Source: Comamonadaceae bacterium
Lineage (GTDB): Bacteria; Pseudomonadota; Gammaproteobacteria; Burkholderiales; Burkholderiaceae_C
NCBI GenBank assembly: GCA_947455465.1
Contig: CANGNS010000001.1
Location: forward strand, 186,001 to 250,000
Reading direction: 5' to 3'
Length of the DNA: 64,000 bases
Below, piece after piece: positions 16,181-60,887 of this stretch. Under the pieces are notes generated by a model. The model had not been told where the DNA came from and searched no databases. It saw nothing but the letters and a program-made list of their open reading frames with translations. Position numbers and translations under genes: made by a program. Each line of letters begins with the position of its first letter. The first letter of the stretch is position 1.

Positions 16181-16198
16181 ATCGTCCGCATGGACGAT
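16181..16198 (+). promoter_or_regulatory. 18-bp inverted repeat, putative LuxR-type (TeiR/TesR) operator, site 1
   Basis: ATCGTCCGCATGGACGAT has 7-bp arms that are perfectly complementary, the best copy of the repeat in the window. A TAGACT hexamer follows at 16220-16225, 21 bp from the repeat, and the MFS ATG is at 16258. The repeat centre would sit near -42.5. Confidence 0.75.
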
Positions 16199-16257
16199 GA
16201 GTGCAGGTGCAGCGCTTCCTAGACTGGAGACCACACACCGCCAGGACTGGAGCAGCT

Positions 16258-17514
16258 ATGTTGAAGCGTAATTGGCCTTTGATCGTACTCACGCTGATCG
16301 CCACCGTGCAGTTCTTCGATCGGGCCATGATGGTCATCGTCATTGAGCCCATCAAACAAGAATTTGGCCTGAGCGACTCCCAGTTGGGCATGGTCTCGGG
16401 CCTGAGCTATGCCGCAGCATTTGCCCTTGCCGGCATTCCGCTGGGCTGGCTGGCTGACCGAGTGAACCGACGCAATTTGCTGGCGGCACTTTTGGCGCTA
16501 TGGAGCGGCTTCGTATTGTTGGCCGGTGGCGCAAGCAGCTTTGTCGGACTGATTGCTGCGCGCATAGGCATCGGCGCCATGGATGCGGGCGGCCAGCCCT
16601 GCTCCGTCTCTATCATTTCAGACCTGGCGAGCCGCGAAAAACGCGCCGGTGCCGTGGCTACTTTCTATGCCGGCGTCCCCCTGGGCATGCTGCTGGGTTT
16701 CATGGGCGGCGGCTTGATTGCCGCCAACTATGGCTGGCGGACTGGCTTTTTTGTCGCAGCCGTCCCTGGGCTGCTGCTGGCAGCGTTGCTTTGGTTTACG
16801 GTGCCAGAACCGGCGCGCGGCGCCACCGAAAAGGCCAGCGCCGAACCGCCACAAAGCGCCCCCAGCCTGGGTGAGTCCTTGCGCTTTATGCTGGGCCAGC
16901 CCTCGTTGCGCATGGTGATTTTGGGCAGCATCTTGGTGACTTCCACCTCCTCGGCCATGATGAGCTGGATTGGCTCTTTGCTGATCCGCACCCACCAACT
17001 CTCCCTGCCCGAAGTGGGCATCATGACCTCTTTGTGCATGGGCGGCTTTGGCGCCATTGGAACCGTATTTTTCGGACGCCTGGCCGACCGCCTGGGTGCC
17101 CAGTCCATGCGCTGGCAGCCGCAGCTCATGGCTGCGGGGGCTGCGTGGATTGCCGTTTTCGGCGCTGCCGTCTGCCTGCTGCCGTCTGTGGCGGGCGTGG
17201 CCGTGGCACTGGCGCTGTTTGCCGCTGGCGTGGCCGGTCTGAACGGCCCGACTTACGCCCTCACCCAAAGCCTGGTACAGGTGCGCATGCGCGGGGTGTC
17301 CATGTCGGTGTTGGTGGTTTTGCTCAATTTGATCGGCGTGGGGCTGGGCCCGACGATTGCCGGCGTGCTTAGCGATGTGTTCTCGGTGCAGTACGGGCCC
17401 GACTCGGTGCGCTGGGCCATGGCTTGCGTGCTGGTGCTCAACCTCCCGGCCATCTTCATTTTCGCCCGTGCCGCCCGCAACATTGAGGCCGATCTGGCCC
17501 GGGCCCAGCAATGA
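16258..17514 (+). CDS. Major facilitator superfamily transporter, probable steroid/bile-acid permease
   Basis: This 418-aa protein has about twelve hydrophobic segments. It shows the MFS loop 2-3 signature (GWLADRVNRRNLLA) and a large central loop around residue 190. The ATG at 16258 has GGAG 5 bp upstream; an in-frame GTG at 16201 would overlap the predicted promoter. The upstream inverted repeat is shared with the TonB receptor gene and ring-degradation genes. This supports inner-membrane import of steroid acids rather than an unrelated substrate. The 162-bp gap after it contains the next copy of the repeat. Confidence 0.82.
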   Translation: MLKRNWPLIVLTLIATVQFFDRAMMVIVIEPIKQEFGLSDSQLGMVSGLSYAAAFALAGIPLGWLADRVNRRNLLAALLALWSGFVLLAGGASSFVGLIAARIGIGAMDAGGQPCSVSIISDLASREKRAGAVATFYAGVPLGMLLGFMGGGLIAANYGWRTGFFVAAVPGLLLAALLWFTVPEPARGATEKASAEPPQSAPSLGESLRFMLGQPSLRMVILGSILVTSTSSAMMSWIGSLLIRTHQLSLPEVGIMTSLCMGGFGAIGTVFFGRLADRLGAQSMRWQPQLMAAGAAWIAVFGAAVCLLPSVAGVAVALALFAAGVAGLNGPTYALTQSLVQVRMRGVSMSVLVVLLNLIGVGLGPTIAGVLSDVFSVQYGPDSVRWAMACVLVLNLPAIFIFARAARNIEADLARAQQ

Positions 17515-17586
17515 CACACCCCCGATTTCCTGACCCCTATGGAGGCTGAAGTACGTAAAAACCCTCCCCTCACTTTTTACAACACT

Positions 17587-17604
17587 CTCGTCCACTTGGA
17601 CGAT
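17587..17604 (+). promoter_or_regulatory. 18-bp inverted repeat, putative LuxR-type operator, site 2
   Basis: CTCGTCCACTTGGACGAT; the distal half differs from the perfect arm at one base. A TACATT hexamer lies at 17626-17631, with 21 bp between. The repeat ends 72 bp before the TonB-receptor ATG. Confidence 0.75.
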
Positions 17605-26018: not shown

Positions 26019-26036
26019 ATAGTCTTTTTGGACGAT
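26019..26036. promoter_or_regulatory. 18-bp inverted repeat between divergent genes, putative LuxR-type operator, site 3
   Basis: ATAGTCTTTTTGGACGAT lies 74 bp before the SDR start (26111) and 73 bp before the TauD-type start (25945), an almost symmetrical position. Toward the SDR, TATGCT at 26058-26063 is a good -10 at the standard spacing. Toward the dioxygenase only a weak TCCAAT is placed comparably. Confidence 0.72.
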
Positions 26037-26110: not shown

Positions 26111-26845
26111 ATGCGACTGAAGAACAAAGTAGCGCTGGTCACCGGCGCAGGACAAGGCATGGGCCGCGCCATTGCGCGCCGTTTTGCCGCCGAGGGCGCG
26201 ACCGTGGTGGCGCTGGACGTCAACCTGGAGGCGGCCCAAGAAACACTGGCGGGCCTGTCAGGCAAGAGCATCGCCCGCAAAGTCAACATCGCCAACAGCG
26301 CCGAAGTGGCCGCCCTGGTCGCAGAGGTGGTGGACACGCTGGGCAGTGTGGACGTGCTGGTCAATAACGCCGGCGTGGGCTCGGTCGACGCTTTCGCCGA
26401 CATCCCGGACGCCACCTGGGAGCGCGTCATTGGCGTGAACCTGACGGGCGCTTTTTACTGCGCACGCGAAGCGGTGCGCGCCATGCAAAAAGCCGGTACG
26501 CAGGGCGTGGTTATCAATGTCGCCAGCACAGCCGCTGTCTCGGGCGACGGTCCGGCCCACTACTGCGCCTCCAAAGCCGCCCTGATGGGCCTGACGCGCA
26601 GCATGGCCAAGGAACTGGCCAGCCAAGGCATTCGGGTCAACACGCTGGTTCCCGGCCCGACCAACACGCCGATGATGCAAAGCATCCCGCAGGAATGGAC
26701 CGACGCCATTATCAAAGGCGTGCCCATGGGCCGCATGGCTGAGCCCGAAGACATTGCCGATGTGGCCCTGTTTTTGGCCAGCGACGACAGCCGCTTTGTC
26801 ACGGGCCAAAACCTGGCCGTGAACGGCGGCAGCGCCTTTATTTAA
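26111..26845 (+). CDS. SDR-family oxidoreductase, candidate hydroxysteroid dehydrogenase
   Basis: This 244-aa classical SDR has TGAGQGMG near residues 12-19, LDVN after the second strand (NAD preference), LVNNAG, a Ser in NVASTAAVSG, and YCASK (HYCASKAALMGL). It is the first gene of a four-gene operon (SDR, SDR, SnoaL-like, OYE) whose promoter carries the shared inverted repeat. AGGAG lies 8-12 bp before the ATG. The combination suggests oxidation or reduction of a ring hydroxyl of a steroid, for example C7 or C12 of bile acids (inference). Confidence 0.78.
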   Translation: MRLKNKVALVTGAGQGMGRAIARRFAAEGATVVALDVNLEAAQETLAGLSGKSIARKVNIANSAEVAALVAEVVDTLGSVDVLVNNAGVGSVDAFADIPDATWERVIGVNLTGAFYCAREAVRAMQKAGTQGVVINVASTAAVSGDGPAHYCASKAALMGLTRSMAKELASQGIRVNTLVPGPTNTPMMQSIPQEWTDAIIKGVPMGRMAEPEDIADVALFLASDDSRFVTGQNLAVNGGSAFI

Positions 26846-26858
26846 ATTAGGAGACAGC

Positions 26859-27629
26859 ATGGCACACGGTCGATTGCACAACAAAGTCGCCTTCATCACC
26901 GGTGGGGGCAGCGGCATTGGCGAAGCCACTGCGCTGCGTTTTGCCGAGGAAGGCGCCCACGTCGTCGTCTGCGGGCGCCGCTTGGAGCCCCTGGCACAGG
27001 TGGTGGCGCGCATCGAGGCCGCTGGCGGACAAGCGCGGGCCATGCAAGTGGACGTCTCGGACGAGGCAGCGCTGACCAGTGCCATCGAAAAAACGGCTAC
27101 CGAGCTGGGCGGCTTGGATATTTTGGTCAACAACGCCATGGCTTATAGCTGGGGCACGATTGACGCCACCAGCACCGCAGACTGGCACAGCAACTTTGCC
27201 ACCTCGGTAGACGGCACTTTTTGGGGCACTCGGGCTGCCATGAAGCGCATGAAATCCAAAGGCGGCTCCATCATCAATGTGTCCTCGATTTGCGGGCTCT
27301 TGGGCACGCACTCCATGGCCGGTTACTCGGCGGCCAAGGCTGCCATCATCAACTTCAGCCGTGCCGCGGCCGCCGAGGGAGCCAGCAACGGCATCCGGGT
27401 CAATGTGGTGATCCCGGCCGTCGTTGAAACCCCCGCCACCGCCGGCATGCTCTCGGACGCCGGCGCGCGCCAAAACACCGAAAAACTCATTCCCATGGGC
27501 CGTGTCGGCCAGCCGCGCGAACTGGCCAACGCCATTTTGTTTCTGGCCAGCGACGAGTCCAGCTACGTTACCGGCGCCGCCCTGCCCGTCGACGGTGGCC
27601 GCTCGGCCGTACTGACCACTGCGCTGTGA
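26859..27629 (+). CDS. SDR-family oxidoreductase, second of the operon
   Basis: This 256-aa classical SDR has TGGGSGIGEA, CGRRLEP after the second strand (Arg-rich, suggesting NADP(H)), ILVNNAM, a Ser in NVSSICG, and YSAAK. AGGAGACAGC precedes the ATG. The opposite cofactor hint from the preceding SDR would let the pair oxidise one hydroxyl and reduce a ketone, as needed for epimerisation (inference). It overlaps the next start as GTGA. Confidence 0.78.
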   Translation: MAHGRLHNKVAFITGGGSGIGEATALRFAEEGAHVVVCGRRLEPLAQVVARIEAAGGQARAMQVDVSDEAALTSAIEKTATELGGLDILVNNAMAYSWGTIDATSTADWHSNFATSVDGTFWGTRAAMKRMKSKGGSIINVSSICGLLGTHSMAGYSAAKAAIINFSRAAAAEGASNGIRVNVVIPAVVETPATAGMLSDAGARQNTEKLIPMGRVGQPRELANAILFLASDESSYVTGAALPVDGGRSAVLTTAL

Positions 27630-28273
27630 GCCAGCCTACGCCCGCCTGGCCGGCCACACTGGAAGAACGCGTAGACCGCCTGGAATCCTTGGACGCCATC
27701 CGCCAACTGGCGGGTAAATACGCACTCTCCTTGGACATGCGCGACATGGACGCGCACGTCAACCTGTTCGCCCCTGACATCCGGGTGGGTAAGGACAAAG
27801 TGGGGCGTGACCATTTCAAGGCCTGGCAAACCGACACTTTGCGCGACCAATTTACCGGTACCTCGCACCATTTGGGCCAGCACATCATCGAGTTTGTGGA
27901 CGCGCACCATGCCACCGGGCTGGTGTACTCCAAAAACGAGCATGAGTGCGGCGCCGAGTGGGTGATCATGCAAATGCTGTACTGGGACGACTACGAGCGC
28001 ATCGGCGGCCAGTGGTTTTTCCGCCGCCGCCTGCCCTGCTACTGGTATGCCACCGACCTGAACAAGCCGCCCCTGGGCGACATGAAGATGCGCTGGCCCG
28101 GCCGCCAGCCCTACCACGGCACGTTTCACGACCTGTTTCCCAGCTGGAACGAGTTTTGGGCCGAGCGCCAGGACAAAGACAGCCTGCCCCAAGTGGCAGC
28201 ACCGGCGCCGCTGGAGCAGTTTTTGCGCACCATGCGCCGGGGCACGCCCACACCCAAGATCCGGGTGCGCTGA
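27626..28273 (+). CDS. SnoaL-like/NTF2-fold protein, candidate steroid hydroxyl dehydratase
   Basis: This 215-aa SnoaL_4-type protein has a coiled N-terminal helix (LEERVDRLESLDAIRQL) followed by GKYALSLDMRD. Tyr32 and Asp37, five residues apart, and a His cluster at 81, 82 and 86 mirror the Tyr-Asp-His set of bile-acid 7-alpha-dehydratase BaiE and related steroid dehydratases. The C-terminal 60 residues are an extension rich in Pro and aromatic residues (PGRQPYHGTFHDLFPSW). It is translationally coupled to the SDR before it (GTGA) and 1 bp from the OYE gene. Dehydratase activity is an inference from fold and context; many SnoaL-like proteins act on other substrates. Confidence 0.7.
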   Translation: MSQPTPAWPATLEERVDRLESLDAIRQLAGKYALSLDMRDMDAHVNLFAPDIRVGKDKVGRDHFKAWQTDTLRDQFTGTSHHLGQHIIEFVDAHHATGLVYSKNEHECGAEWVIMQMLYWDDYERIGGQWFFRRRLPCYWYATDLNKPPLGDMKMRWPGRQPYHGTFHDLFPSWNEFWAERQDKDSLPQVAAPAPLEQFLRTMRRGTPTPKIRVR

Positions 28274-28274
28274 G

Positions 28275-29333
28275 ATGGACAAATTGTTTAGCCCACTGCA
28301 GCTGGGCGCCTTGCACCTGCAAAACCGCATCGTCATGGCACCCATGACGCGCAACCGCGCCGAGCCCGACGGCTGCGCCAATGCCCTGATGGCCCAGTAC
28401 TACCGCCAGCGCGGCGACGCTGGCCTGGTCATCGCCGAAGGCACCTGGCCCAGCGCGGACGGGCAGGCCTATTGCCGCCAACCGGGCATTGCCAACGAGG
28501 CGCACGTCCGGGCCTGGAAGCCGGTGTGCGCCGCGGTGCATGCGCGTGGCGGCCTGATCGCCTTGCAAATCATGCATGGCGGGCGCATTGGCAGTGTGCA
28601 CATCAAAGGTGCGGGCAGTCGCAGCCTTGCGCCTTCGGCCCTGCAGGCGCAAGGCGAGGTGTTTACCGACCGCAGCGGCATGCAAGCCTATGACCTGCCC
28701 GAGGCGCTCAGCACCGAGGAGGTGCGTGCGGTCATCGCCGAGCATGGCGCAGCAGCCAAGCGGGCCCGCGAAGCCGGATTTGATGCCGTGGAGCTGCATT
28801 GCACCAGCGGCTACCTGCCTATGCAGTTTTTGTGCTCGGGCACCAATGTGCGCACCGACGCCTACGGGGGCGACGCCGCCGCGCGCGCGCGCTTTGCCAT
28901 CGAGTGCCTGCAAGCCATGGGCGCAGCCATCGGCATCGACCGGGTGGGCTTGCGCATCAACCCGGGCAACACTTTTAACGACACCTCGGACGACAACTCC
29001 GCAGCTACCCACGCCACTTTGTTGGGCCTGGCGGCACCGCTGGGCCTCGCTTATGTGCATGTAATGCGCGCGCCCCTGCCTGAGATCGACGCCTTTGGTA
29101 TGGCTGCGCAGGTTCTGCCCAGGCGGCTGATCCTGAACGACGGCTTTGGCCCGGACACCTGCGCATCGGCGCTAGACCAGTACCCGGGTGCCGCCTTGTC
29201 CTTTGCGCGGCACTTTGTGGGCAACCCCGATTTGGTGCAGCGCCTGCGCCAAGGCCTGCCCTTGGCGCGCTTTGACCGCAAGACCTTGTACACGCCCGGC
29301 GCCAGCGGATACACCGACTACCCTTGCGCCTAG
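28275..29333 (+). CDS. Old yellow enzyme-type alkene reductase, FMN-dependent
   Basis: This 352-aa TIM-barrel flavoprotein has the FMN-binding N-terminus (LQNRIVMAPMTRNRA), QIMHGGRIG, GFDAVELHCTSGYLPMQFL and LILNDGFGPDTC. Family enzymes reduce activated C=C bonds with NAD(P)H. The substrate-anion pair, normally His-x-x-Asn or His-x-x-His, is His175 and Ser178 here, with Tyr180 kept. It follows a putative dehydratase by one base pair, so it may saturate the double bond that the dehydratase creates, as OYE-type enzymes do in bile-acid dehydroxylation (inference). Confidence 0.83.
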   Translation: MDKLFSPLQLGALHLQNRIVMAPMTRNRAEPDGCANALMAQYYRQRGDAGLVIAEGTWPSADGQAYCRQPGIANEAHVRAWKPVCAAVHARGGLIALQIMHGGRIGSVHIKGAGSRSLAPSALQAQGEVFTDRSGMQAYDLPEALSTEEVRAVIAEHGAAAKRAREAGFDAVELHCTSGYLPMQFLCSGTNVRTDAYGGDAAARARFAIECLQAMGAAIGIDRVGLRINPGNTFNDTSDDNSAATHATLLGLAAPLGLAYVHVMRAPLPEIDAFGMAAQVLPRRLILNDGFGPDTCASALDQYPGAALSFARHFVGNPDLVQRLRQGLPLARFDRKTLYTPGASGYTDYPCA

Positions 29334-29366: not shown

Positions 29367-29384
29367 TTAGTCCCAACGGACGAT
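29367..29384 (+). promoter_or_regulatory. 18-bp inverted repeat, putative LuxR-type operator, site 4
   Basis: TTAGTCCCAACGGACGAT ends 74 bp before the tesB start. CACAAT at 29407-29412, 22 bp downstream of the repeat, is the matching -10-like element. It would drive the long tesB-ipd operon. Confidence 0.73.
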
Positions 29385-29458
29385 GTTCTAGAGCGCCGCG
29401 CCCACCCACAATGGGCATCTGATCGGCCCCCTTGTGTGCAGGGCCTGGGAGTGTGCCC

Positions 29459-30367
29459 ATGATGACTATTTCCGGACTCGCGTATGTAGTGGCCCAATCG
29501 ACCGACCTGGCCCGCTGGACCACCTATGCCCATGAGGTGCTGGGCATGATGACGGAGGCAGCACCTGACGGCGGTCTGTACCTGCGCATGGACGAGCGCC
29601 AGTTCCGCATCGCCGTGCAACCCGGCACCCGCGACAGCTATGTCTGCTCTGGCTGGGAAGTGGCCAACCAGGCCGCGTTTGAGCAAGCCATTGCCACCTT
29701 GGAGCAGCACAAGGTGCCATTTGAGCGCGGCGACGCGGCGCTTTGCGCGCTGCGCAAAGCCAATGGCCTGGTGCGCTTTAGCGACCCCTCGGGCAACTGC
29801 CATGAGGTGATTTGGGGGTTTCAGTCGGACTTTGCGCATTTCAATTCGCCGGTGGGCGTGCAACGCTTTGTCACCGGCAACATCGGCATGGGGCACACCG
29901 TGCTACCGGCAGAGGCCTTTGCGCAAACCCACCAGTTCGTCACCGAGGTGATGGGCTTTGGCTTGTCGGACATGTTTAACTTCAAGCCCGCAGGTGACGC
30001 GGGGCCGACGCTGCCGATTTATTTCTACCACTGCAACAATGGTCGTCACCACAGCCTGGCCATCGCCGGCTTCCCGGTGGAAAGCGGTTGCGTGCACATC
30101 ATGGTCGAGGTGCCCGACGTGCCCGAAGTGGGCCGCGCGCTGGACCGCATGCAAAGCCACAAGGTAACGCAAACGGCCACGCTGGGCCAGCACAGCAATG
30201 ACAAGATGATCTCGTTTTACATGCGCTGCCCCTCCAACTTTGACATCGAATACGGCTGCGGTGGCGCGGTACACGACTGGCAGTCGCATATCGCGCACGA
30301 GTTCACCCGTGTGAGCCTGTGGGGCCACGACTTCAGCATTGGCCAAGCGGCCCCGGCCAAAGACTGA
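29459..30367 (+). CDS. tesB: Extradiol dioxygenase for 3,4-DHSA (TesB/HsaC)
   Basis: This 302-aa type I extradiol dioxygenase has two vicinal-oxygen-chelate halves. Iron ligands are His146 (MGHTVLP), His197/198 (NGRHHSLA) and Glu264 (FDIEYG). In steroid degraders this enzyme cleaves the aromatised A ring of 3,4-dihydroxy-9,10-seco-androsta-1,3,5(10)-triene-9,17-dione (meta cleavage). The ATG at 29459 is chosen for its GGGAG at 29447-29451; an in-frame GTG at 29432 lies nearer the promoter. It heads an uninterrupted run of ring C/D genes starting with ipdA 6 bp downstream. Confidence 0.9.
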   Translation: MMTISGLAYVVAQSTDLARWTTYAHEVLGMMTEAAPDGGLYLRMDERQFRIAVQPGTRDSYVCSGWEVANQAAFEQAIATLEQHKVPFERGDAALCALRKANGLVRFSDPSGNCHEVIWGFQSDFAHFNSPVGVQRFVTGNIGMGHTVLPAEAFAQTHQFVTEVMGFGLSDMFNFKPAGDAGPTLPIYFYHCNNGRHHSLAIAGFPVESGCVHIMVEVPDVPEVGRALDRMQSHKVTQTATLGQHSNDKMISFYMRCPSNFDIEYGCGGAVHDWQSHIAHEFTRVSLWGHDFSIGQAAPAKD

Positions 30368-30373
30368 ACACCC

Positions 30374-31258
30374 ATGAGCGCTAGCAACAAACTCATGCAG
30401 GCCCGCGATGTCGTGGCCACCCTGCGCGACGGCATGACCATCGGCATTGGCGGCTGGGGCCCCCGGCGCAAGCCCATGGCCCTGGTGCGCGAAATACTGC
30501 GCAGCAATCTGCGCGACCTGACCATCGTGAGCTATGGCGGCGCCGATGTAGGCATGTTGTGCGCTGCGGGCAAAGTGAAGAAATTGGTGTTTGCCTTTGT
30601 GTCATTGGACTTTATTCCCCTGGAGCCTTACTTTCGTATCGCCCGCCAAAGCGGCGCCCTGGAGGTCATGGAGATAGACGAAGGCATGCTGATGCTGGGC
30701 CTGCAAGCGGCAGGCATGCGCATACCGTTTATTCCTACGCGCATTGGCCTGGGCACGGATGTGCTCCAGCGCAACCCCGGCATCACCTTGGTGGATTCGC
30801 CCTACGATGCACGCCAATGGGTCGCCATGCCGGCTTTGCCCTTGGACGCAGCCTTGCTGCACGCCGACCGGGCCGACGTGCGAGGCGTTTGCCAAGTTAA
30901 AGGTCCGGACCTGTACATGGACGCGCTCTATGCCCGCGCCGCGACCCACACCTATGTCAGCTGCGACGAGCTGGTCGACAGCAGCTACTTCGCCCAAGGC
31001 GACGAAGCACGCTATGTGTTTTGGGAACGGGCGCAGACCACTGGTGTGGTGCATATTCCGGGCGGCGCACACCCCAGTTCGTGCGCGCCGCTGTACGGCT
31101 TTGACACGGCACATTTCAAGGAATACGCCGCCAGCGCCAAAGACCCCGAAGGCTGGAGCAACTACACGCAGCGCTATGTGCACTGCGACGCCGACGAGTA
31201 TTTGCAGCGCGTGGGCGGCCTGCAGGCGGTGCAAAAGCTGCCCTTGCCGGTATTTTGA
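30374..31258 (+). CDS. ipdA: CoA-transferase-fold hydrolase subunit IpdA
   Basis: This 294-aa alpha subunit of the CoA-transferase family has an N-terminal glycine-rich segment (MTIGIGGWGPRRKPMALVRE), then SYGGADVGMLCAAGKV and EIDEGMLMLGLQAAG. With IpdB it opens the last steroid ring (COCHEA-CoA) by hydrolysis, not CoA transfer, in actinobacterial and proteobacterial steroid degraders. It lies between tesB and ipdB (11-bp gap to the latter). The pairing and position in a steroid operon make this assignment strong. Confidence 0.9.
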   Translation: MSASNKLMQARDVVATLRDGMTIGIGGWGPRRKPMALVREILRSNLRDLTIVSYGGADVGMLCAAGKVKKLVFAFVSLDFIPLEPYFRIARQSGALEVMEIDEGMLMLGLQAAGMRIPFIPTRIGLGTDVLQRNPGITLVDSPYDARQWVAMPALPLDAALLHADRADVRGVCQVKGPDLYMDALYARAATHTYVSCDELVDSSYFAQGDEARYVFWERAQTTGVVHIPGGAHPSSCAPLYGFDTAHFKEYAASAKDPEGWSNYTQRYVHCDADEYLQRVGGLQAVQKLPLPVF

Positions 31259-31269
31259 GGATCGCCCCG

Positions 31270-32034
31270 ATGCAAGAATTTACCCTGGTTGACCGTGTCA
31301 TCTGCGCCGCTGCCCGCGCCTGGGCGCAGGACGGCGAAGTACTGGCCACGGGCATAGGCATCGTGCCGCGCCTGGCCGCTTCGCTGTGCATGCGCTCGCT
31401 CAACCCCGATCTGATGATGACCGACTCGGAGGCCTGGCTGGTCAGCACACCAGTGCCCGTGGGCCCGCGTGGCAGCTATGTGCCACAGCGGGAAACCTGG
31501 ATGGGCTTTACCCGCATCTTTGACAATGTTTGGAGTGGCAAGCGCCATGCCATGGTGGGGCCAACGCAAATCGACCGCTTCGGCCAGGCCAATATCTCCA
31601 TGATCGGTGCCGACTACGCCAAACCCAAATCGATGATGCTGGGGGTGCGCGGCTTTCCGGGCAACTCTATCAACCATGCCAATTCGTTTTTTGTGCCCAA
31701 CCACAGCAGCAAAGTGTTTGTTGCCGGCGAAGTCGACATGGTGGCATCGGCCGGCTACAACCCGGCGCGCATGGCGCGGGGCTGGAGCACGGACGACATT
31801 GACATCCGCTGGATTTTCAGCAACCTGGCGGTGATGGACTTTAGCGGCCCCAAGCACCAGATCGCCTTGCGCGCCCTGCACCCAGGCGTTACCGTGGAAC
31901 AAGTCCAAGAGGCCACTGGTTTTGACCTTCACCTTCCGGCTCATATCGACACGACCGCAGACCCGACTGCCGCGCAAATGGAACTGTTGCAGCAACTAGA
32001 CCCTCACAACCTGCGCGCCAGCGCACTCGGATAG
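31270..32034 (+). CDS. ipdB: CoA-transferase-fold hydrolase subunit IpdB
   Basis: This 254-aa beta subunit is the partner of IpdA. Family segments include ATGIGIVPRLAASL, GPTQIDRFGQANIS, GVRGFPGNSINHAN and the C-terminal LHPGVTVEQVQEATGFDL. The ATG at 31270 is chosen; a start at 31255 overlaps the ipdA stop and lacks similarity. The next hydratase gene begins 8 bp later. Confidence 0.9.
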   Translation: MQEFTLVDRVICAAARAWAQDGEVLATGIGIVPRLAASLCMRSLNPDLMMTDSEAWLVSTPVPVGPRGSYVPQRETWMGFTRIFDNVWSGKRHAMVGPTQIDRFGQANISMIGADYAKPKSMMLGVRGFPGNSINHANSFFVPNHSSKVFVAGEVDMVASAGYNPARMARGWSTDDIDIRWIFSNLAVMDFSGPKHQIALRALHPGVTVEQVQEATGFDLHLPAHIDTTADPTAAQMELLQQLDPHNLRASALG

Positions 32035-32042
32035 GCCAGCCC

Positions 32043-34036: not shown

Positions 34037-34048
34037 AGCATTTCTGTC

Positions 34049-34804: not shown

Positions 34805-34821
34805 CCGGCCAGGAGACCGCC

Positions 34822-35982: not shown

Positions 35983-35996
35983 TCGGGGACGCCACC

Positions 35997-37064: not shown

Positions 37065-37075
37065 GCGAAGTATTT

Positions 37076-41405: not shown

Positions 41406-41407
41406 CC

Positions 41408-41872: not shown

Positions 41873-41901
41873 CCATTACATAGATTTCCGAGAACACCAC
41901 C

Positions 41902-43120: not shown

Positions 43121-43169
43121 GCGCCGACGCTACGCCGAGCGCGCATAACGATTCGTTTTGGAAGATCAG

Positions 43170-44334: not shown

Positions 44335-44352
44335 CTAGTCCCCTTGGACGAT
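44335..44352 (+). promoter_or_regulatory. 18-bp inverted repeat, putative LuxR-type operator, site 5
   Basis: CTAGTCCCCTTGGACGAT starts 16 bp after the regulator stop and ends 72 bp before the Ltp2-like gene start. GACAAT at 44374-44379 follows at the standard 21-bp spacing. Confidence 0.73.
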
Positions 44353-44424
44353 GGGTGCGGCGGCCCGCCTGGGGACAATGCACACTGCATTGCATCGCAC
44401 AAAACCTCAGCACAAAAGGATCCC

Positions 44425-45639: not shown

Positions 45640-45641
45640 GC

Positions 45642-46586
45642 ATGGCCTGGAACAAACCCCTGCCCCAGGTCACCGAGATTTCGGCGCCTTTTTGGGATGG
45701 CTTACGCGCCCACACCGTACGCATTCAGCAGTGCGACCAAGACCACTGGATCTTTTTCCCGCGTACCCACTGCCCGCACTGCGGCTCGCGCAGCCTGCAA
45801 TGGCGCAGCGTCAGCGGCGCGGCTACGCTGTACAGCTTTACCGTGGCGCGGGTGCCTACGCTGCCCGAATTCACCGACGAAATGCCGCAGTTGCTGGCCG
45901 TGGTGGAGCTCGCTGAGGGCGTGCACATCAACACCACACTGGTGGGCATGGAGCCTGCGGATATTCACATTGGCCAGGCCTTGCGCCCGGTTTTTGACGA
46001 GCGCCCGGGCAGCCACGTGTTGTTGCGCTACACGGCTGTGGACAGCGCCGCACCCACCGTATTGCAAGCGCATGCCCCTGCTGCCCCGAGCCTGGAACCG
46101 GCACCAGCGGCCCCAGTGGCACGCAGGCAAATTTCCTGCAAAGACAGCGCGGCCATGCAGTCGCTGGTAAGTGATGCTTTTTCAGACTGGTCCAACCAGA
46201 TTGAAGTGACCCAGGCGCTCATCGACCAATTTGCCGCCCTGAGTGGTGACGACTATTGGATCCATACCGACCCCGCCAAGGCGCGCACCGACAGCCCGTT
46301 TGGCACCACCATCGCCCAAGGCTCCCTGGTGCAGGTGCTGATCAGCCGCTTGCAGTTGCCGCTGGACTACGAAATTACCGGCTCCAACAATATGGTCAAT
46401 TACGGCTCGGACCGGCTGCGCTTTGCCAACCCGGTGCCCTCGGGCTGCCGCATCCATGCGCGCTACCGGGTCAAGGCAGTGCAGGCGGTCAAAAGCGGCA
46501 TGCAGCTGACCATGGAGATCAACATCCACGTCGTTGGCCAGGAGCGCCCGTCGGTCATCAATGACCTTGTTATTTTGTATATGTAA
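45642..46586 (+). CDS. DUF35-MaoC didomain protein, partner of the Ltp2-like aldolase
   Basis: The 314-aa fusion has an N-terminal DUF35 zinc-ribbon plus OB fold (residues 1-140; TLYSFTVARVP, GQALRPVFDE). A Pro/Ala linker (about 143-165) leads to a C-terminal MaoC hot-dog domain (SGDDYWIHTDPAKARTD). The zinc ribbon reads CDQDHWIFFPRTHCPHC, so the first C-x-x-C pair has lost its second Cys, unlike typical DUF35 ribbons. The domain order is the reverse of ChsH2-type MaoC-DUF35 fusions, one of which lies at 61725. Probably hydratase plus aldolase scaffold for side-chain removal. Confidence 0.83.
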   Translation: MAWNKPLPQVTEISAPFWDGLRAHTVRIQQCDQDHWIFFPRTHCPHCGSRSLQWRSVSGAATLYSFTVARVPTLPEFTDEMPQLLAVVELAEGVHINTTLVGMEPADIHIGQALRPVFDERPGSHVLLRYTAVDSAAPTVLQAHAPAAPSLEPAPAAPVARRQISCKDSAAMQSLVSDAFSDWSNQIEVTQALIDQFAALSGDDYWIHTDPAKARTDSPFGTTIAQGSLVQVLISRLQLPLDYEITGSNNMVNYGSDRLRFANPVPSGCRIHARYRVKAVQAVKSGMQLTMEINIHVVGQERPSVINDLVILYM

Positions 46587-50696: not shown

Positions 50697-51692
50697 TCAA
50701 GGCGCGGTGGGCGAGCGCCAAAGCTTGGGCAGGCCGGGGTCGGTGGCCAAAATCAGGTGTTTGAGCAAATTGCGCAGCGCAGCGGCCTCGATCTCGCCCA
50801 GGCGCGCCACCAAAGCCTCCTCGGCTTGTGTGGCCAGCGCCAGCACAGCGGCAACGGCTTGGCGTCCGTGCGCGCTCGCTTGCCAGCGGCTGGCCTGACC
50901 CGCCTCCTGCGGCGCGGCCTCGAGCAGCTGGCGGGCCACCATGGCCTGGCACAGGGCCGCATCAAAATGCACGCCGGTATAACTGAGGTAGGCGGCCAAA
51001 TCTACTTGCGACAGCGGCGAACGCACGCTGAGCAAGGACAGCACAAAGAAATCCGCATCGCTGAGCTGGTAGGCCTGCAGCGCCGGACGCAAATGGTGCA
51101 TGAACTGAAAATGCGCCCGCCCCAGCAAATAGCCCAGCAGGTCCTCAGAATAAGAAGCCCCGGCCATATCGGCCTGTGGCTCGGTCGACACCGGCGCCGC
51201 CTTGCGCGAGGCCAGCGCGTATTCGCCCGTCAGGTACAAGAGCGGCGGCAAGGCGCAGCTGTCATAGGCCACTACTTCGCCCACAAAAATCGTGTGGTCG
51301 CCCCCTTCGTACTGAAAGGCGCTGCGGCACTCAAAGCGGGCGCTGCAACCTTGCAGCAGCGGTGCGCCGAAGGCCGACTCGTCCAGCGCCAGGCCGGCAA
51401 ACTTGTCCTCGCCAGCGCGGGCAAAGCGGTTGGACAGATGCTCTTGCGCATTGGACAGAATATGCACATTCCAGTGCGTGCTGGTGCTAAAGACCTCGCG
51501 GGTGCGCGCTGTATTGGCCAGGCTCCACAGCACCATGGGCGGCTGCAGCGATACCGAATTGAAGCTATTGGCCGTGATGCCCACGGGCGTGCCGTCCGGG
51601 GCCCGGGCGGTGACAATGGTCACGCCGGTCGCAAACGTGCCCAGCGCGCGGCGAAAGTCGCGGGGGTCAAAGCTCGAAGTGGCGGTTGGCAA
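50697..51692 (-). CDS. hsaB: Flavin reductase of 3-HSA hydroxylase fused to a MarR-like domain (HsaB type)
   Basis: This 331-aa protein has a flavin reductase domain at residues 1-165 (FDPRDFRRALGTFATGVTIV, NSFNSVSLQPPMVLWS, FVGEVVAYDSC) that feeds reduced flavin to HsaA. A C-terminal winged-helix MarR-like domain follows (about 195-325, LSQVDLAAYLSYTGVHFDAAL). Actinobacterial HsaB is only about 190 aa. The TTG at 51692 is chosen over the longer frame: a GGAG lies 7 bp upstream, and the start then sits 74 bp from a degenerate operator copy, the same spacing as other units. It diverges from hsaA. Confidence 0.84.
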   Translation of the reverse strand: MPTATSSFDPRDFRRALGTFATGVTIVTARAPDGTPVGITANSFNSVSLQPPMVLWSLANTARTREVFSTSTHWNVHILSNAQEHLSNRFARAGEDKFAGLALDESAFGAPLLQGCSARFECRSAFQYEGGDHTIFVGEVVAYDSCALPPLLYLTGEYALASRKAAPVSTEPQADMAGASYSEDLLGYLLGRAHFQFMHHLRPALQAYQLSDADFFVLSLLSVRSPLSQVDLAAYLSYTGVHFDAALCQAMVARQLLEAAPQEAGQASRWQASAHGRQAVAAVLALATQAEEALVARLGEIEAAALRNLLKHLILATDPGLPKLWRSPTAP

Positions 51693-51766
51693 TCGATGTC
51701 TCCAAGGAATCTGGCCAGCGGCCTGGCAAGGTAGTGTGCAGCATGCCCCCGGCCCGGCGCCCTGCA

Positions 51767-51784
51767 ATCCCTCACTCGGACTAG
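51767..51784 (-). promoter_or_regulatory. Degenerate inverted repeat before hsaB, putative operator, site 6
   Basis: On the minus strand it reads CTAGTCCGAGTGAGGGAT: the left arm matches, while the right arm keeps only G....GAT. A CATGCT hexamer at 51745-51740 has the standard offset, and the TTG start is 74 bp away. Spacing is what supports it; the sequence alone is weak. Confidence 0.45.
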
Positions 51785-51810: not shown

Positions 51811-51828
51811 TTAGTCTGATTGGACGAT
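51811..51828 (+). promoter_or_regulatory. 18-bp inverted repeat before hsaA, putative LuxR-type operator, site 7
   Basis: TTAGTCTGATTGGACGAT precedes GATACT at 51851-51856, with 22 bp between. The hsaA ATG at 51931 is 102 bp away; an in-frame ATG at 51871 is nearer but lacks a ribosome-binding site. Confidence 0.7.
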
Positions 51829-51930
51829 GATTGAGATCTGCCCCGCTACGGATACTCGCAGCACGGGACAATGATCTCGCAGGCCCTTAGTAGACCGCAG
51901 CGCCCTGTGCGCCGCACCCGGAGACCCACC

Positions 51931-53127
51931 ATGCCAGCCACGACCGACGATTACCTGACCCCCTTGGCCCAAACCCTGATCGAGCGCGCCCGCGCCATGA
52001 TCCCCACCCTGGCCGCACGCGCCCGCGCCAGCGAGGACACAGGCCTGATTTCGGCCGACACCATCGCCGAGATGAAAGAGGCCGGTTTTTTCAAAGTACT
52101 GCAACCCAAGCGCTGGGGCGGCTACGAGATGGACCCCAGAGTGTTCTACCAAGTTCAGATGGCCCTGGCCGAAGGCTGCATGGCTACCGCCTGGGTTTAT
52201 GGCGTGGTGGGCGTACACAACTGGCAAATTCCGCTCTTCCCGGAGCAAGCGCAGCAAGAGGTGTGGGGCCAAGATTCCAACATCCTGACCGCCTCCACCT
52301 ACATGCCTGTGGGCAAGGCCGAACCGGTCGAGGGCGGCTACCGCTTTAGCGGCCATTGGAGCTGGAGCAGCGGCGTCGAGTTTTGCGACTGGATTTTGCT
52401 AGGCGGCCTGCTGCCCAAGAAAAATGGCTCGGGCGAGATCGAACACTGCACTTTTTTGCTGCCCAAGGCTGATTTCCAGGTCGTCAAGAACTTTGATGTG
52501 CTCGGTCTGCGCGCCACCGGCAGCCATGACATCGTGGTCAAAGACGCCTTCGTCCCCGAGCACCGCACCCAGCGCACCAACGACCACAGCGACGCGGGCT
52601 GCCCTGGCCGGGCCACCAACCCGGGCTGGCTCTACCGTATTCCGTTTACCCAGGTGTTCCAGCGTGCGGTGTCCACCGCTTGTATTGGGGCGACCGAGGG
52701 CGCGATTGCCAGCTTTCGCCAGCGCGCGGCCAGCTTTGTGGGCAAACACGGCTCCAAGACGGCCGAGGACGTCAACGCCCAAATGGCCGTCAGCCAGGCC
52801 ATGATGCTGACCGACCAGCTGCGTTTGGTGCTACTGCGCAACTACCAGCGCGTGGTCGATTGCGCCCAAAGCCAAGAAAAAATGCCCGTGGAAGAGCGTC
52901 TGATGCAGCGCGCCCAGTCGGCCATCGTGCCCAAGCTGTGTGCCGAGGCGGTGAACGAAATCATGCGCGCCTGCGCCGCCGGCGGCGTGTTCAAAACCAA
53001 TCCGATTGAGCGCATTTTTAGGGACTTGCATGTGGCGCGTGGCCACATCGCCAACAATGCCGACGCTTTTGCGCGCGCCCATGGCTCGGTCATGCTGGGC
53101 TTGCCCAATACCGATCCCTTCGTCTGA
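51931..53127 (+). CDS. hsaA: Flavin-dependent 3-HSA hydroxylase, oxygenase component (HsaA type)
   Basis: This 398-aa acyl-CoA-dehydrogenase-fold monooxygenase (HpaH/HsaA group) has an N-terminal helical domain (LAARARASEDTGLISADTIAEM), GHWSWSSGVEFCDWILLGG, FDVLGLRATGSHDIVVKDAFVPEHR and a C-terminal helix ending in HGSVMLGLPNTDP. With HsaB it hydroxylates 3-HSA to the catechol cleaved by TesB. ATG at 51931 has GGAG 7 bp upstream. It is the first gene of a kstD-kshB-fadD3 operon. Confidence 0.89.
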   Translation: MPATTDDYLTPLAQTLIERARAMIPTLAARARASEDTGLISADTIAEMKEAGFFKVLQPKRWGGYEMDPRVFYQVQMALAEGCMATAWVYGVVGVHNWQIPLFPEQAQQEVWGQDSNILTASTYMPVGKAEPVEGGYRFSGHWSWSSGVEFCDWILLGGLLPKKNGSGEIEHCTFLLPKADFQVVKNFDVLGLRATGSHDIVVKDAFVPEHRTQRTNDHSDAGCPGRATNPGWLYRIPFTQVFQRAVSTACIGATEGAIASFRQRAASFVGKHGSKTAEDVNAQMAVSQAMMLTDQLRLVLLRNYQRVVDCAQSQEKMPVEERLMQRAQSAIVPKLCAEAVNEIMRACAAGGVFKTNPIERIFRDLHVARGHIANNADAFARAHGSVMLGLPNTDPFV

Positions 53128-53138
53128 TCGGCCGCGCC

Positions 53139-54860
53139 ATGGATTACGACCTTATCGTGGTCGGGTCGGGCGCGGGCGCCCTGCTCGCAGCCATTGCCGC
53201 CCACGACGGCGGCCTGCGCCCACTGGTGATTGAGAAAACCAATTTGGTCGGCGGCACCTCGGCGCTGTCGGGTGGTGGCATCTGGATTCCTGTCAATGAC
53301 GACATGGCCAAGGCCGGCATCCCAGACAGCACCGACACCGCTTTTGGCTACGTCAAACGCTGCGCACGCGGCCTGGCCAGCGACCGGCGCATCCTGGCCT
53401 ATGTGGAAACAGCGCGCACCCTGGCGCGCACGCTGGCGCAAATCGGTGTGCCTTACCGCTGCATGCCGCACTATTCGGACTATTACCCGGCCACCGAAGG
53501 CGCACTGCCCGGCGGGCGCACCATGGACCCGGTCGATTTCAATGCCGGCCGCCTGGGCCTGCAAGGCCTGGAGCTGCTGCGCCCAACCAACCCAGGCCAG
53601 CTGATTTTGGGGCGCATGCAAATCAACGCCTTCGAGGCGCGCTCCATGCTGGCGCGCGAGCGCAAGTCCAAATGGGTGCTGATGTGGATCATGGCACGCT
53701 ATTTTCTGGACTACCCCTGGCGCAACAAAACCCGCCGCGACCGGCGCCTGACCGGCGGCCAGGCCCTGGTCGGCGGTCTGCTGACCGCCGCGCGCAAGCG
53801 CAATATTCCGATCTGGACCGAGACCACGCTGCAGTCTCTGCAACACAAAGACGGCCGGGTGTGCGGCGTCACCGTGCTGCGTGACGGGCAAACCCAGTCT
53901 ATTTCGGCTGCCAAAGCCGTTTTGCTGGCCGCAGGCGGATTCGAGCGCAACCAAGAAATGCGCGAGCGCCACCTGCCCCAACCCACCAACCAGGCCTGGA
54001 CCGCCACGCCCCCGGGCGCCAACACGGGCGACGCCATCCGCGCCGGTGCCGAGGTAGGCGCGCAGCTGCACCTGATGGAACACACCTGGGGCGCGCCTAC
54101 GCTGGCCGTCCCCAAGGAAGAAAAGTTTCGGGCCATGTTTGTGGAGCGATCGCTGCCCGGTTGCATGGTGGTCAATGGGCGTGGCGAGCGCTTCCTCAAT
54201 GAATCGGGGCCCTACCCCGAGTTCCAGCAAGCCATGTTTGCCAACCATGCCAAAACCGGCAGCGCCATTCCGGCCTGGATCGTGTTTGATGCGCGCTTTC
54301 GGTCCAAATACCCCATCGGCCCGATGATGCCGGCCAGCGCCGTGCCCGACAGCCGACTGCGCAAAAGCTGGCTCGGCCAGGTGTACTGGAAAGGCGAAAC
54401 CCTGCAAGAACTGGCGGCGCACATCGGCGTTGACCCGCAAGGCCTGGCTGCCAGTGCGGCGCGCATGAGCCAGTTTGCCCAAACCGGCAAAGACCTGGAC
54501 TTTGACCGGGGCGGCAACAGCTTTGACCGCTACTACGGCGACATCCACGTGCACCCCAACCCGAATTTGGCCCCGATCGACCAAGGCCCGTTTTACGCCA
54601 TGCAGCTGTGGCCCGGCGACATCGGCACCAAAGGCGGCCTGCTGACCGACGAAGACGCCCGCGTGCTCGACACCCAGGGCCAGCCCATCGAAGGCCTGTA
54701 CTGCGTGGGCAATAACGCCGCCTCGGTCATGGGCCCGTCTTACCCGGGCGCAGGCTCTACGCTGGGCCCGGCCATGACCTTTGCGCTGCGGGCGGTGGCG
54801 CACCTGCGCGGCCAAAGCATGGCTTTACAACGGACCGATTTGCTGGACAGCGCCGTATGA
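53139..54860 (+). CDS. kstD: 3-ketosteroid delta-1-dehydrogenase (KstD/TesH)
   Basis: This 573-aa flavoprotein has the FAD motif VVGSGAGALLAAIAAHDGG and VIEKTNLVGGTSALSGGGIW. Active-site region PHYSDYYPATEG has Tyr112, Tyr115 and Tyr116. The C-terminal SYPGAGSTLGPAM supplies the Tyr-Gly pair that polarises the 3-keto group. It inserts the C1-C2 double bond, a prerequisite for B-ring opening with KshAB. It overlaps the next FAD protein by ATGA and follows hsaA by 11 bp. Confidence 0.9.
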   Translation: MDYDLIVVGSGAGALLAAIAAHDGGLRPLVIEKTNLVGGTSALSGGGIWIPVNDDMAKAGIPDSTDTAFGYVKRCARGLASDRRILAYVETARTLARTLAQIGVPYRCMPHYSDYYPATEGALPGGRTMDPVDFNAGRLGLQGLELLRPTNPGQLILGRMQINAFEARSMLARERKSKWVLMWIMARYFLDYPWRNKTRRDRRLTGGQALVGGLLTAARKRNIPIWTETTLQSLQHKDGRVCGVTVLRDGQTQSISAAKAVLLAAGGFERNQEMRERHLPQPTNQAWTATPPGANTGDAIRAGAEVGAQLHLMEHTWGAPTLAVPKEEKFRAMFVERSLPGCMVVNGRGERFLNESGPYPEFQQAMFANHAKTGSAIPAWIVFDARFRSKYPIGPMMPASAVPDSRLRKSWLGQVYWKGETLQELAAHIGVDPQGLAASAARMSQFAQTGKDLDFDRGGNSFDRYYGDIHVHPNPNLAPIDQGPFYAMQLWPGDIGTKGGLLTDEDARVLDTQGQPIEGLYCVGNNAASVMGPSYPGAGSTLGPAMTFALRAVAHLRGQSMALQRTDLLDSAV

Positions 54861-56536
54861 GCACCAGCCCGCGCATCTCCACCGTCACCCCGGTGGAGCC
54901 TGCCCTGCTGGTTGAAGACGCCAACAGCCTGGATTGGAGCGAAAGCGCCGACGTGCTAGTCATCGGCTGGGGCGCTGCCGGTGCCTGCGCGGCCATTGAG
55001 GCACGCAGCCAGGGCGCCAGCGTGTTGGTGATCGACCGTTTTGAGGGCGGCGGCGCCAGCACCTTGTCCGGCGGCGTGGTCTATGCCGGGGGCGGCACGC
55101 CCTACCAACAAGAGGCGGGTTTTAGTGACACGCCCCAGGCCATGGCGCGCTATCTGGCCAAGGAAGTGCAAGGCGCGGTCAGCGAAGCGACGATTTCGCG
55201 CTTTTGCGCTGATAGCGTGGCCAATTTGCGCTGGCTCGAGGATCAAGGTCTGCGCTTTGACGCGCGCATGCCGGCACACAAAACCTCCTACCCACCGAAA
55301 GACAAATTTCTCTACTACTCGGGCAACGAGCAGGTGCCGGCCTACCAGGACGGCATCAGCGCGCCGGCCCCGCGCGGCCACCGCACCCTGGGCCAGGGGC
55401 AATCGGGCAAAGAGCTCTACACCGCCTTGCGTGCGGCCACGCTGCGCGCAGGCGCCGTGCCGCTGACGCAAACCACCGTGCGCCGCTTGGTGCGCCAGCG
55501 AAGTGCAGACGGCCAGGACGGTCCGGTGCTGGGCGTGCAAGTCTGGGCTTTGCCAAAAGACCACCCAGAGACCCTGCGTCATGCGCAATTGCATGCGCAG
55601 GTAGCGCGCTGGCGCCTGGTGCGCCCGGCCAAGGCCATGGCCTGCCGACGCGAGGCAGCGGCCATCGAGCAGCGCATCGCGCAGCCGCGCTTTATCCGTG
55701 CGCTGCGCGCCGTGGTGCTGACCACCGGCGGCTTTATCTACAACCCCGAGATGATGGCCGCCCACGCGCCACACGCCAAGCGCGGCTGGCCCGTAGGCGC
55801 TGCCGGCTGCGACGGCAGCGGTATCCGGCTAGGGCAAAGCGTCGGGGGCCAAACCCAGGGCATGGACAACATCTCGGCCTGGCGCTTTATTACGCCGCCC
55901 TCAGCCTGGCCGCGCGGCCTGGTAGTCAACACCCAAGGCGCACGTTTTTGCAATGAAGAGGTCTATGGCGCCACCCTGGGCCATGAAATGATTACCCACC
56001 AAGGCGGCCGCGCTTGGTTGATTTTGGACCGCAAGCTGCGCGCGCAAGCCACGCGCCAATGCCTGTGGGGCGGCTTGTGGGCGTTCCAGGCGGTGCCTGC
56101 GCTCACGCTCATGTGGCTACACGCGCGCAAAGCGCCCACCATCGCCGCGCTGGCGGCGCGCATTGGCGCAGACCCGCAAACCTTGCAAAACAGCCTGGAC
56201 CAGGCCAATGCCGCTGCCCAAGGCCGGGGCGAAGATCCGGTGGGCAAATCCACCGGCATGCGCCAAGCCATGCCCGAGGGCCCGTATTTCGCGCTGGATA
56301 TCTCCGTTGGCTCGCCGGTATTTCCGCTGGCAACCCTCACCTTGGGCGGTTTGCTTGTGGATGAAAGCAGCGGCTTGGTACTCGATGCCCAAGGCGCGCC
56401 TATTGCCGGCCTGTATGGCGCGGGCCGGGCGGCCGTGGGCTTGGCCTCCGGGCGCTACGTCAGCGGCCTGTCTCTGGCAGACTGCGTGTTTTCAGGGCGG
56501 CGGGCCGGCAAGGCAGCGGCCAGTGGCATGGCTTAA
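54857..56536 (+). CDS. FAD-binding KstD-like/fumarate-reductase-type flavoprotein, function uncertain
   Basis: The 559-aa flavoprotein has an extended N-terminus (about 30 residues), VLVIGWGAAGACAAIEARSQG, FEGGGASTLSGGVVYAGGG, VVLTTGGFIYNPEM, GLVVNTQGARFCNEE and the C-terminal GRAAVGLASGRYVSGLSLA. It has no SYPGAGSTLG segment like that of the true KstD upstream, so it is not a plain second KstD or TesI. It may reduce or desaturate a steroid ring, perhaps a delta-4 or 5-beta step. It is translationally coupled to kstD. Roughly 70 residues in the middle (Arg/Ala-rich, about 230-280) are poorly conserved in appearance. Confidence 0.75.
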   Translation: MSTSPRISTVTPVEPALLVEDANSLDWSESADVLVIGWGAAGACAAIEARSQGASVLVIDRFEGGGASTLSGGVVYAGGGTPYQQEAGFSDTPQAMARYLAKEVQGAVSEATISRFCADSVANLRWLEDQGLRFDARMPAHKTSYPPKDKFLYYSGNEQVPAYQDGISAPAPRGHRTLGQGQSGKELYTALRAATLRAGAVPLTQTTVRRLVRQRSADGQDGPVLGVQVWALPKDHPETLRHAQLHAQVARWRLVRPAKAMACRREAAAIEQRIAQPRFIRALRAVVLTTGGFIYNPEMMAAHAPHAKRGWPVGAAGCDGSGIRLGQSVGGQTQGMDNISAWRFITPPSAWPRGLVVNTQGARFCNEEVYGATLGHEMITHQGGRAWLILDRKLRAQATRQCLWGGLWAFQAVPALTLMWLHARKAPTIAALAARIGADPQTLQNSLDQANAAAQGRGEDPVGKSTGMRQAMPEGPYFALDISVGSPVFPLATLTLGGLLVDESSGLVLDAQGAPIAGLYGAGRAAVGLASGRYVSGLSLADCVFSGRRAGKAAASGMA

Positions 56537-59970: not shown

Positions 59971-59997
59971 GGCGCAGGGCTTTAGCGACCCACAGCT

Positions 59998-60813
59998 TTA
60001 GCGGCCCTCAAACTGCGCTTTGCGCTTTTCAATAAAGGCCTGCATGCCCTCTTTTTGGTCGCGTGTGGCAAACAGCAGCTGGTTGGCCTTGCGCTCGAGC
60101 ATCAACGCAGTCTCGAGCGAAGCGTCAACACCAGCGAGCACCACTTCTTTGATCTGCATCGCCGCCAGGGGCGGCATGGCGGCAATCTGGCGCGCCATCT
60201 TGAGCGCCTCGTCCAGCAATTGCGCGTCGGGGAAGACCTGGCTGACCAGGCCCATGGCGCAGGCCTCTTGGGCGCTGACGGCTTTGCCGGTGAGCAGCAT
60301 GCGCATGGCGTTGAATTTGCCCACCGCGCGCACCAGACGTTGGGTGCCGCCAATGCCCGGCATGATGCCGATGCGGATCTCGGGCTGCGAAAAGCTGGCG
60401 CCCTCGCCGGCCAAAATAATGTCGCAGTGCATGGCCAGCTCGGCCCCGCCCCCAAAAGCGTAGCCGCAGACCGCCGCAATAATGGGCTTGGGGCAGCGCT
60501 CGATAGGCGCCCACACCCGCTCGGTATGCCGGCGCATGATCTCGATCGGGCCCGCGCCTTCTAAGGTCTTGATGTCGCCGCCAGCGGCAAAGACTTTGTC
60601 CCCGCCAGTGAGCACAATAGCGCGCACCGCCTCGTTGGCGCTCAGGTCGGTAAAGGCCTGCGAGAGCGCGGCCTGCAAAGACAGGCTTAGCGCATTGGCC
60701 GCCTCGGGCCGGTTCAGACGCACCAGGGCGACACCGTCATCTAGGATCTGCACCAGCACTTGCGTGCCAGGTTCAGCCGCGCCAGGGGCCACAAGGGGGT
60801 TTTCAATCGACAT
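59998..60813 (-). CDS. Enoyl-CoA hydratase (PaaF/EchA19-type crotonase)
   Basis: The 271-aa crotonase fold has the two oxyanion segments GGDKVFAAGGDIKTLEG and AAVCGYAFGGGAELAMHCD. Catalytic Glu residues are in FSQPEIRIGIMPGIGGTQRL, as in true hydratases. It would hydrate an enoyl-CoA of a steroid side chain or ring product. The ATG at 60813 is preceded by GGGAA; the frame extends far upstream through the divergent promoter, which is ignored. Its promoter shares a copy of the inverted repeat with the divergent SDR. Confidence 0.86.
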   Translation of the reverse strand: MSIENPLVAPGAAEPGTQVLVQILDDGVALVRLNRPEAANALSLSLQAALSQAFTDLSANEAVRAIVLTGGDKVFAAGGDIKTLEGAGPIEIMRRHTERVWAPIERCPKPIIAAVCGYAFGGGAELAMHCDIILAGEGASFSQPEIRIGIMPGIGGTQRLVRAVGKFNAMRMLLTGKAVSAQEACAMGLVSQVFPDAQLLDEALKMARQIAAMPPLAAMQIKEVVLAGVDASLETALMLERKANQLLFATRDQKEGMQAFIEKRKAQFEGR

Positions 60814-60869
60814 GGGCAGTTCCCGCAAATGCAATGGGGTGCATGGTGGTTTTTCGGGGGCGCCGTTAC

Positions 60870-60887
60870 ATCGTCCTTTTGGACGTA
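60870..60887. promoter_or_regulatory. 18-bp inverted repeat between divergent genes, putative LuxR-type operator, site 8
   Basis: ATCGTCCTTTTGGACGTA (plus strand) carries the perfect half toward the minus-strand hydratase. Toward the hydratase a weak CACCAT lies at 60848-60843. Toward the SDR, TAGATT at 60909-60914 is also at the standard spacing; its transcript would start about at the ATG (60922). Confidence 0.72.

Follow-up and report, generated by a model that had tools for sequence, protein, structure and literature searches.

The window, that is, the whole 64,000-nucleotide stretch that was analysed (G000:C1:186001-250000), is a region of steroid degradation and encodes HsaC/TesB (from 29432), HsaA (51871), HsaB (50697), and a LuxR-type regulator (43158); we take the names tesA1 and tesA2 to stand for HsaA and HsaB. 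Two flavoprotein dehydrogenase genes follow hsaA, and the first of them, at 53139, is called KstD-like here. Residues 208-337 of the HsaB-like reductase gave a weak match (E 4.8e-4) to a regulator family, as if they formed a C-terminal regulatory domain. Seven strong copies of an inverted repeat, termed boxes below, lie next to these genes and their neighbours (Table 1).

Table 1. Boxes, their -10-like hexamers, and the associated genes (window positions unless a contig is given)
Feature	Position	Strand	-10-like hexamer	Genes and remarks
MFS transporter	16201-17514			Gene after Box 1
TonB-dependent receptor	17677-19986			Gene after Box 2
steABCD-like operon	26111..29333	+		SDR, SDR, SnoaL-like, flavin oxidoreductase
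tesB/hsaC and ring-degradation genes	29432..43110	+		Running to tesR
LuxR-type regulator, TesR/TeiR counterpart	43158..44318	+		Predicted GAF-like, PAS-like, and helix-turn-helix parts
Sal-like thiolase and Shy-like genes	44344..46586	+		Thiolase from 44344; Shy-like (MaoC plus OB-fold) from 45642
hsaB/tesA2-like flavin reductase	50697..51767	-
hsaA/tesA1-like gene and two flavoprotein dehydrogenase genes	51871..56536	+
Box 1, TCGTCCGCATGGACGA	16182..16197	+	TAGACT 16220-16225	Upstream of MFS transporter, probable ATG 16258
Box 2, TCGTCCACTTGGACGA	17588..17603	+	TACATT 17626-17631	Upstream of TonB-dependent receptor, ATG 17677
Box 3, TAGTCTTTTTGGACGA	26020..26035	+	TATGCT 26058-26063	Upstream of steABCD-like operon, ATG 26111
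Box 4, TAGTCCCAACGGACGA	29368..29383	+	CACAAT 29407-29412, one base more than usual	Upstream of tesB/hsaC, ATG 29459
Box 5, TAGTCCCCTTGGACGA	44336..44351	+	GACAAT 44374-44379	Upstream of Sal-like thiolase and Shy-like genes, ATG 44425
Box 6, TAGTCTGATTGGACGA	51812..51827	+	GATACT 51851-51856, one base more than usual	Upstream of hsaA/tesA1, ORF from 51871
Box 7, ACGTCCAAAAGGACGA on the - strand, one mismatch	60871..60886	.	CACCAT 60843-60848 (-); TAGATT 60909-60914 (+)	Hexamers in both directions; enoyl-CoA hydratase gene on one side, SDR gene on the other
Weak copy, TAGTCCGAGTGAGGGA, three mismatches, uncertain	51768..51783	-	CATGCT 51740-51745	Possible hsaB/tesA2 box
Box outside the window	G000:C1:271408-271423 (L168 1408-1423)		TAGCAT at usual spacing	Before aldehyde dehydrogenase, SDR, flavin oxidoreductase run

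A sequence-only reading of this DNA had placed the 17-bp pattern NTMGTCY-N4-GGACGAT at seven intergenic positions, with an eighth, degenerate copy before hsaB. A pattern search of the window returned Boxes 1 to 6 as exact matches on the plus strand, whereas Box 7 carries one mismatch on the minus strand and two on the plus strand. The degenerate copy does have its CATGCT at 21 bp and a TTG start in the hsaB frame 74 nt away, but it contains three mismatches on the minus strand and is weak; matches with up to three mismatches numbered 59 against 21.5 expected, so that a lone three-mismatch copy carries no meaning. The same reading had described a -10-like hexamer 21-22 bp from the repeat, and this was borne out at 21 bp for Boxes 1, 2, 3, 5, and 7 and at 22 bp for Boxes 4 and 6. 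The gaps to five proposed gene starts measured 72, 74, 74, 72, and 73 nt as claimed, but one of these starts, that of the leftward gene at 25945, belongs to a promoter without a spaced hexamer. This gene is probably no member of the regulon; the sequence facing it has no NANNNT hexamer at 21-23 nt from the core, and the arm nearest to it, GACTA, is seldom used. At Box 7, the plus-strand TAGATT lies 7 nt upstream of the SDR gene ATG at 60922, so the SDR transcript might be leaderless. The placement of the boxes before steroid-type genes holds for the main operons, but the first two precede the transporter and the receptor, for which a part in taking up or exporting steroids is suggested by position only.

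A symmetric 16-bp core, TMGTCYN4RGACKA, was used alongside the original pattern. The exact core of the original pattern occurs at six places in the 3.06 Mb genome, all inside the window, a confinement that is partly circular because the pattern was derived from window sites. The symmetric core occurs at seven sites genome-wide, six in the window and one 21 kb beyond its end, and all lie within a single 70-kb segment that surrounds the steroid cluster (C1:202182-271423). One-mismatch copies were present at 31 places in this genome outside the window; among the 13 of these that were inspected, both arms were intact and a spaced hexamer was present at C1:271408 alone. The copy at C4:135788, which has one mismatch, carries AAGTTT at the spacing. 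When the window was scored with a matrix built solely from other genomes, the 11 top-scoring positions corresponded to the seven strong sites; one of 20 Markov controls reached a score of 15 and the rest stayed below 12. This result and the count of symmetric cores are less affected by the circularity noted above.

Spacing between box and hexamer was compared in stretches from five other genomes, namely those of Comamonas testosteroni ATCC 11996, Caldimonas tepidiphila, Azohydromonas caseinilytica, Rhodoferax lacus, and G004. NANNNT stood exactly 22 nt after the core at 36 of 44 symmetric sites and within 21-23 nt at all 44, some of the stretches having been chosen because a site had already been located there; the set comprises symmetric cores only, and four degenerate C. 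testosteroni cores with a hexamer at 22 nt were excluded. In the ATCC 11996 cluster, the hexamer lay at 22 nt for eight of ten core matches and at 21 nt for one, and the remaining match had none at 21-23 nt. At loci near tesR relatives, 48 of 58 sites had NANNNT exactly 22 nt past the 16-bp core, compared with a mean of 2.9 over 50 offsets; this set includes six window sites (four of them at 22 nt) and leaves out L036 and L037, which are near-identical to the window. The exact 22-nt hexamer was absent at 17 of 102 unique symmetric sites. Regulator-free genomes, by contrast, had NANNNT at 22 nt in 1 of 31 sites and at 21-23 nt in 5 of 31, approximately the chance level, and a separate count gave 1 of 52 site-orientations with a hexamer at 22 nt.

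Taking the hexamer as positions -12 to -7, a core 22 nt away puts the centre of the palindrome at -42.5. The site is nearly fixed relative to the -10-like hexamer and would be centred near -42.5 of the start if that hexamer is the -10 element. Class II activators bind at sites centred near -41.5 to -42.5, and in the lux-box geometry of LuxR-type activators of this class the palindrome runs into the -35 region. The box would share this centre and likewise enter the -35 region; it differs in that the palindrome is another one, its arms are strongly polar, and the regulator has no acyl-homoserine-lactone domain detectable by Pfam. The class II geometry predicted for a regulon-wide operator, as first proposed, is supported by a spacing that recurs in other genera. 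A repressor site for TesR or another protein would be a very improbable reading of the same boxes: according to excerpts of the literature, one hydroxysteroid dehydrogenase gene of C. testosteroni is reported to be repressed by a LuxR-type protein, but the box keeps a near-constant distance upstream of the hexamer without overlapping it, as for an activator, and excerpts of a 2026 paper describe tesR as a positive regulator of steroid genes (PMC13101464).

Orthologous promoters were compared in six genomes, the window's own and the five named above. A box was found before tesB, the Sal-like gene, and hsaA in all six, and also before the aldehyde dehydrogenase gene in all six, the copy of the window's genome being the one at C1:271408. 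A box precedes steA in five of the six; the ste box of R. lacus stands instead before a ste-type flavin oxidoreductase gene. The run of SDR, MaoC, and thiolase genes is preceded by a box in five genomes, the window's genome being the exception, and tesR comes next in four of those five; in Azohydromonas, tesR does not follow the run directly. No box was found before the SDR-MaoC-thiolase-tesR run of the window, either in the sequence 40561-40640 or in whole-window scans. In ATCC 11996, boxes lie before tesB, in the hsaA/hsaB gap facing hsaA, and before the run ending in tesR. The arms were identical across the compared genomes in five of the six promoter groups and averaged 0.90 identity in the aldehyde dehydrogenase group, while ungapped flanks were 28-38% identical. 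The tesB run of A. caseinilytica comes in two separate parts, and the one that starts from the CoA-transferase gene carries its own box, with CAGAAT at 22 nt (L181, G412:C4:18649).

Could the repeats be chance matches or a dispersed non-regulatory element? Bare core matches are common, with at least one exact match to the original core in 304 of 399 family genomes (positions of core matches across genomes being those among the matches listed). On the other hand, spaced hexamers occur with the regulator and not without it, the boxes keep orthologous placement despite diverged flanks, and the matrix built from other genomes picks out the sites of the window. Based on matrix recovery, spacing contrast, and orthologous placement, we rejected this reading, to which we assign a negligible probability.

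Among the 399 family genomes, 14 carry a relative of the regulator (E 1e-60 or better) and 11 carry tesB (E 1e-80 or better). A box with a spaced hexamer precedes tesB in all 11. No tesB genome without tesR was found among the 399; because all 11 are among the 14 regulator carriers, the effects of regulator and cluster are poorly separable, apart from three exceptions. These exceptions (G094, G116, and G131) have a regulator 59, 39, and 72% identical, respectively, no tesB match, and boxes on the contig of the regulator. In G116 (L033, G116:C102) a box lies directly beside the 39%-identical regulator, and its hexamer, AAGAAT at 22 nt, is on the flank that faces away from the gene; regulator and box perhaps represent a related regulon for another substrate. 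Symmetric sites averaged 9.1 per genome in the 14 carriers versus 2.9 in 26 genomes without the regulator (Mann-Whitney p 8e-7), the latter having been hand-picked as four of the window's genus and 22 of the genera of other carriers. One genome, G052, has no regulator yet contains 11 symmetric sites, above most carriers.

Closer comparison disclosed that the box is polar. The promoter-side arm is GACGATG and reaches the -35 position, and the far arm is TAGTC or TCGTC depending on the promoter. A set of 68 oriented sites may hold reversed duplicates, and polarity was therefore taken from duplicate-free sets. Among 45 unique sites with mixed arms (one TAGTC, one TCGTC), the GACGA arm lay beside the hexamer in 34, the arrangement was the opposite in two, both sides had a hexamer in one, and neither side had one at exactly 22 nt in eight; of 49 sites with two TCGTC arms, ten had a hexamer on both sides. 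The -35 region itself lacks a consensus hexamer, a 17-bp spacer giving ATGNNN. In the 73 of 102 sites that are one-sided, the two bases just past the promoter-side arm are T (0.96) and then G (0.96), with both present in 67; the mirror CA outside the far arm occurs in 21 of the 73. This TG would fall at -34/-33, where TTGACA has its TG at a 17-bp spacer. Operator arm and -35 are probably one element, in which the ATG of the arm would occupy -35 to -33 in place of TTG if the hexamer is the -10 element; such a fusion would account for the fixed promoter side and the free far side.

The far side, though free, is not random, and its second base differs by promoter. Promoters of tesB, ste, sal, and tesA1 have A there (24 of 24 sites in six genomes, not counting the Azohydromonas box at C4:18649), and those of the aldehyde dehydrogenase operon and the run before tesR have C (11 of 11). 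We tentatively propose, at somewhat less than even odds, a polar operator fused to the -35 with a per-promoter A/C code kept across genera, in which this base would determine how strongly or in which direction a promoter fires, the symmetric form being capable of both directions and the A form of a single one, and in which TesR would act on the DNA directly and not via a kinase cascade.

The LuxR-family gene had been put forward as the natural candidate activator, and the present data argue for it. Its product is 386 aa long and ends in a LuxR-type helix-turn-helix (Pfam GerE, 25.3 bits against a cut-off of 23.5). GerE and a weak HTH_30 were the only Pfam matches in the protein; neither an autoinducer-binding domain nor a kinase family was found by Pfam. 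A Pfam scan of 50 window frames gave no DNA-binding family besides that of the regulator. An ATCC 11996 gene 64% identical to it likewise closes the tesB run, with SDR, MaoC, and thiolase genes ahead of it in the same order. Judged by this shared neighbourhood and helix-turn-helix, the window regulator is the syntenic counterpart of tesR/teiR of C. testosteroni. The nearest regulator genes with a named source, at 96-99% identity, are those of assemblies labelled Comamonas sp. lk, and the best matches in plasmid records were below 60% identity. Another tesR-like gene, with 55% identity, is present in C. testosteroni and is likewise preceded by a box and a spaced hexamer (L075 9704; L165, G414:C15:18762). 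Giving the gene the name TesR/TeiR, the polarity of the box, and the member outside the window at C1:271408 go beyond what had been described for this stretch.

Structure models of the regulator had a mean pLDDT of 66 (first) and 71 (second) and suggest, at the domain level only, the order GAF-like (11-184), PAS-like, and helix-turn-helix. Foldseek matched the model to PAS plus helix-turn-helix regulators of the VqmA and EL222 type, from which TesR differs by an added N-terminal GAF-like part, and TM-scores were low, the comparison behind the GAF-like assignment covering mainly residues 11-184; a TesR profile found no match among the sequences of solved structures. The VqmA site is given as GG-N6-CC in excerpts of PMC8284805.

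Taken together, we consider the palindrome to be the predicted operator of TesR (TeiR), with a probability of roughly four in five: a TesR dimer would bind near -42.5 and switch on the steroid operons by recruiting RNA polymerase to promoters with a poor -35. The class II operator reading is the best one because the geometry recurs across genera, the sites track regulator-carrying genomes, and the gene is the syntenic counterpart of TesR/TeiR. A palindromic site suits a dimeric LuxR-type domain. TesR/TeiR has reportedly been known since 2004 as a factor required for steroid breakdown in Comamonas. Excerpts of PMC6895838 state that TesR is necessary for induction of tesB-tesR, tesA1-tesG, and tesA2-ORF18. 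Less likely by a wide measure, the boxes could be bound by another regulator encoded elsewhere, with TesR acting upstream of it. In excerpts of reviews, TeiR is presented as a polar membrane kinase that sets off a cascade of phosphorylation, and several other regulators of steroid genes have been reported for C. testosteroni (HsdR, RepA, TetR, PhaR, and a LuxR repressor), as would fit such an arrangement. Against it, the sites track the regulator gene across genomes, even for the 39%-identical relative without tesB, and the protein combines a LuxR-type helix-turn-helix with the missing kinase family and a highest 19-residue hydropathy of 1.47, less than the 2.38 of a transporter control. These last two features do not disprove the reported membrane-kinase role.

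In the preferred reading, that of TesR as a class II activator at its own operator, the protein would sense a steroid or a breakdown product through its N-terminal GAF-like and PAS-like parts, and the dimer would then bind the box and bring in RNA polymerase. A box ahead of the gene run that closes with tesR would produce positive feedback on tesR; in the window, tesR could be transcribed from the tesB promoter.

Dedicated regulators of steroid catabolism are also found in actinobacteria, where KstR and KstR2 are TetR-type repressors according to literature excerpts, whereas here the regulator is LuxR-type and a probable activator. Relative to TesR/TeiR of C. testosteroni, the box, its spacing, and its polarity are additions of this study; the excerpts of the literature searched give no TesR operator, and the original TeiR, 2004 tesR, and 2008 kinase papers lie outside that search and may describe one. 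A defined box at a set promoter distance makes direct action of TesR testable. The box also predicts regulon members from sequence, such as the transporters after Boxes 1 and 2, and it is a possible part for steroid biosensors.
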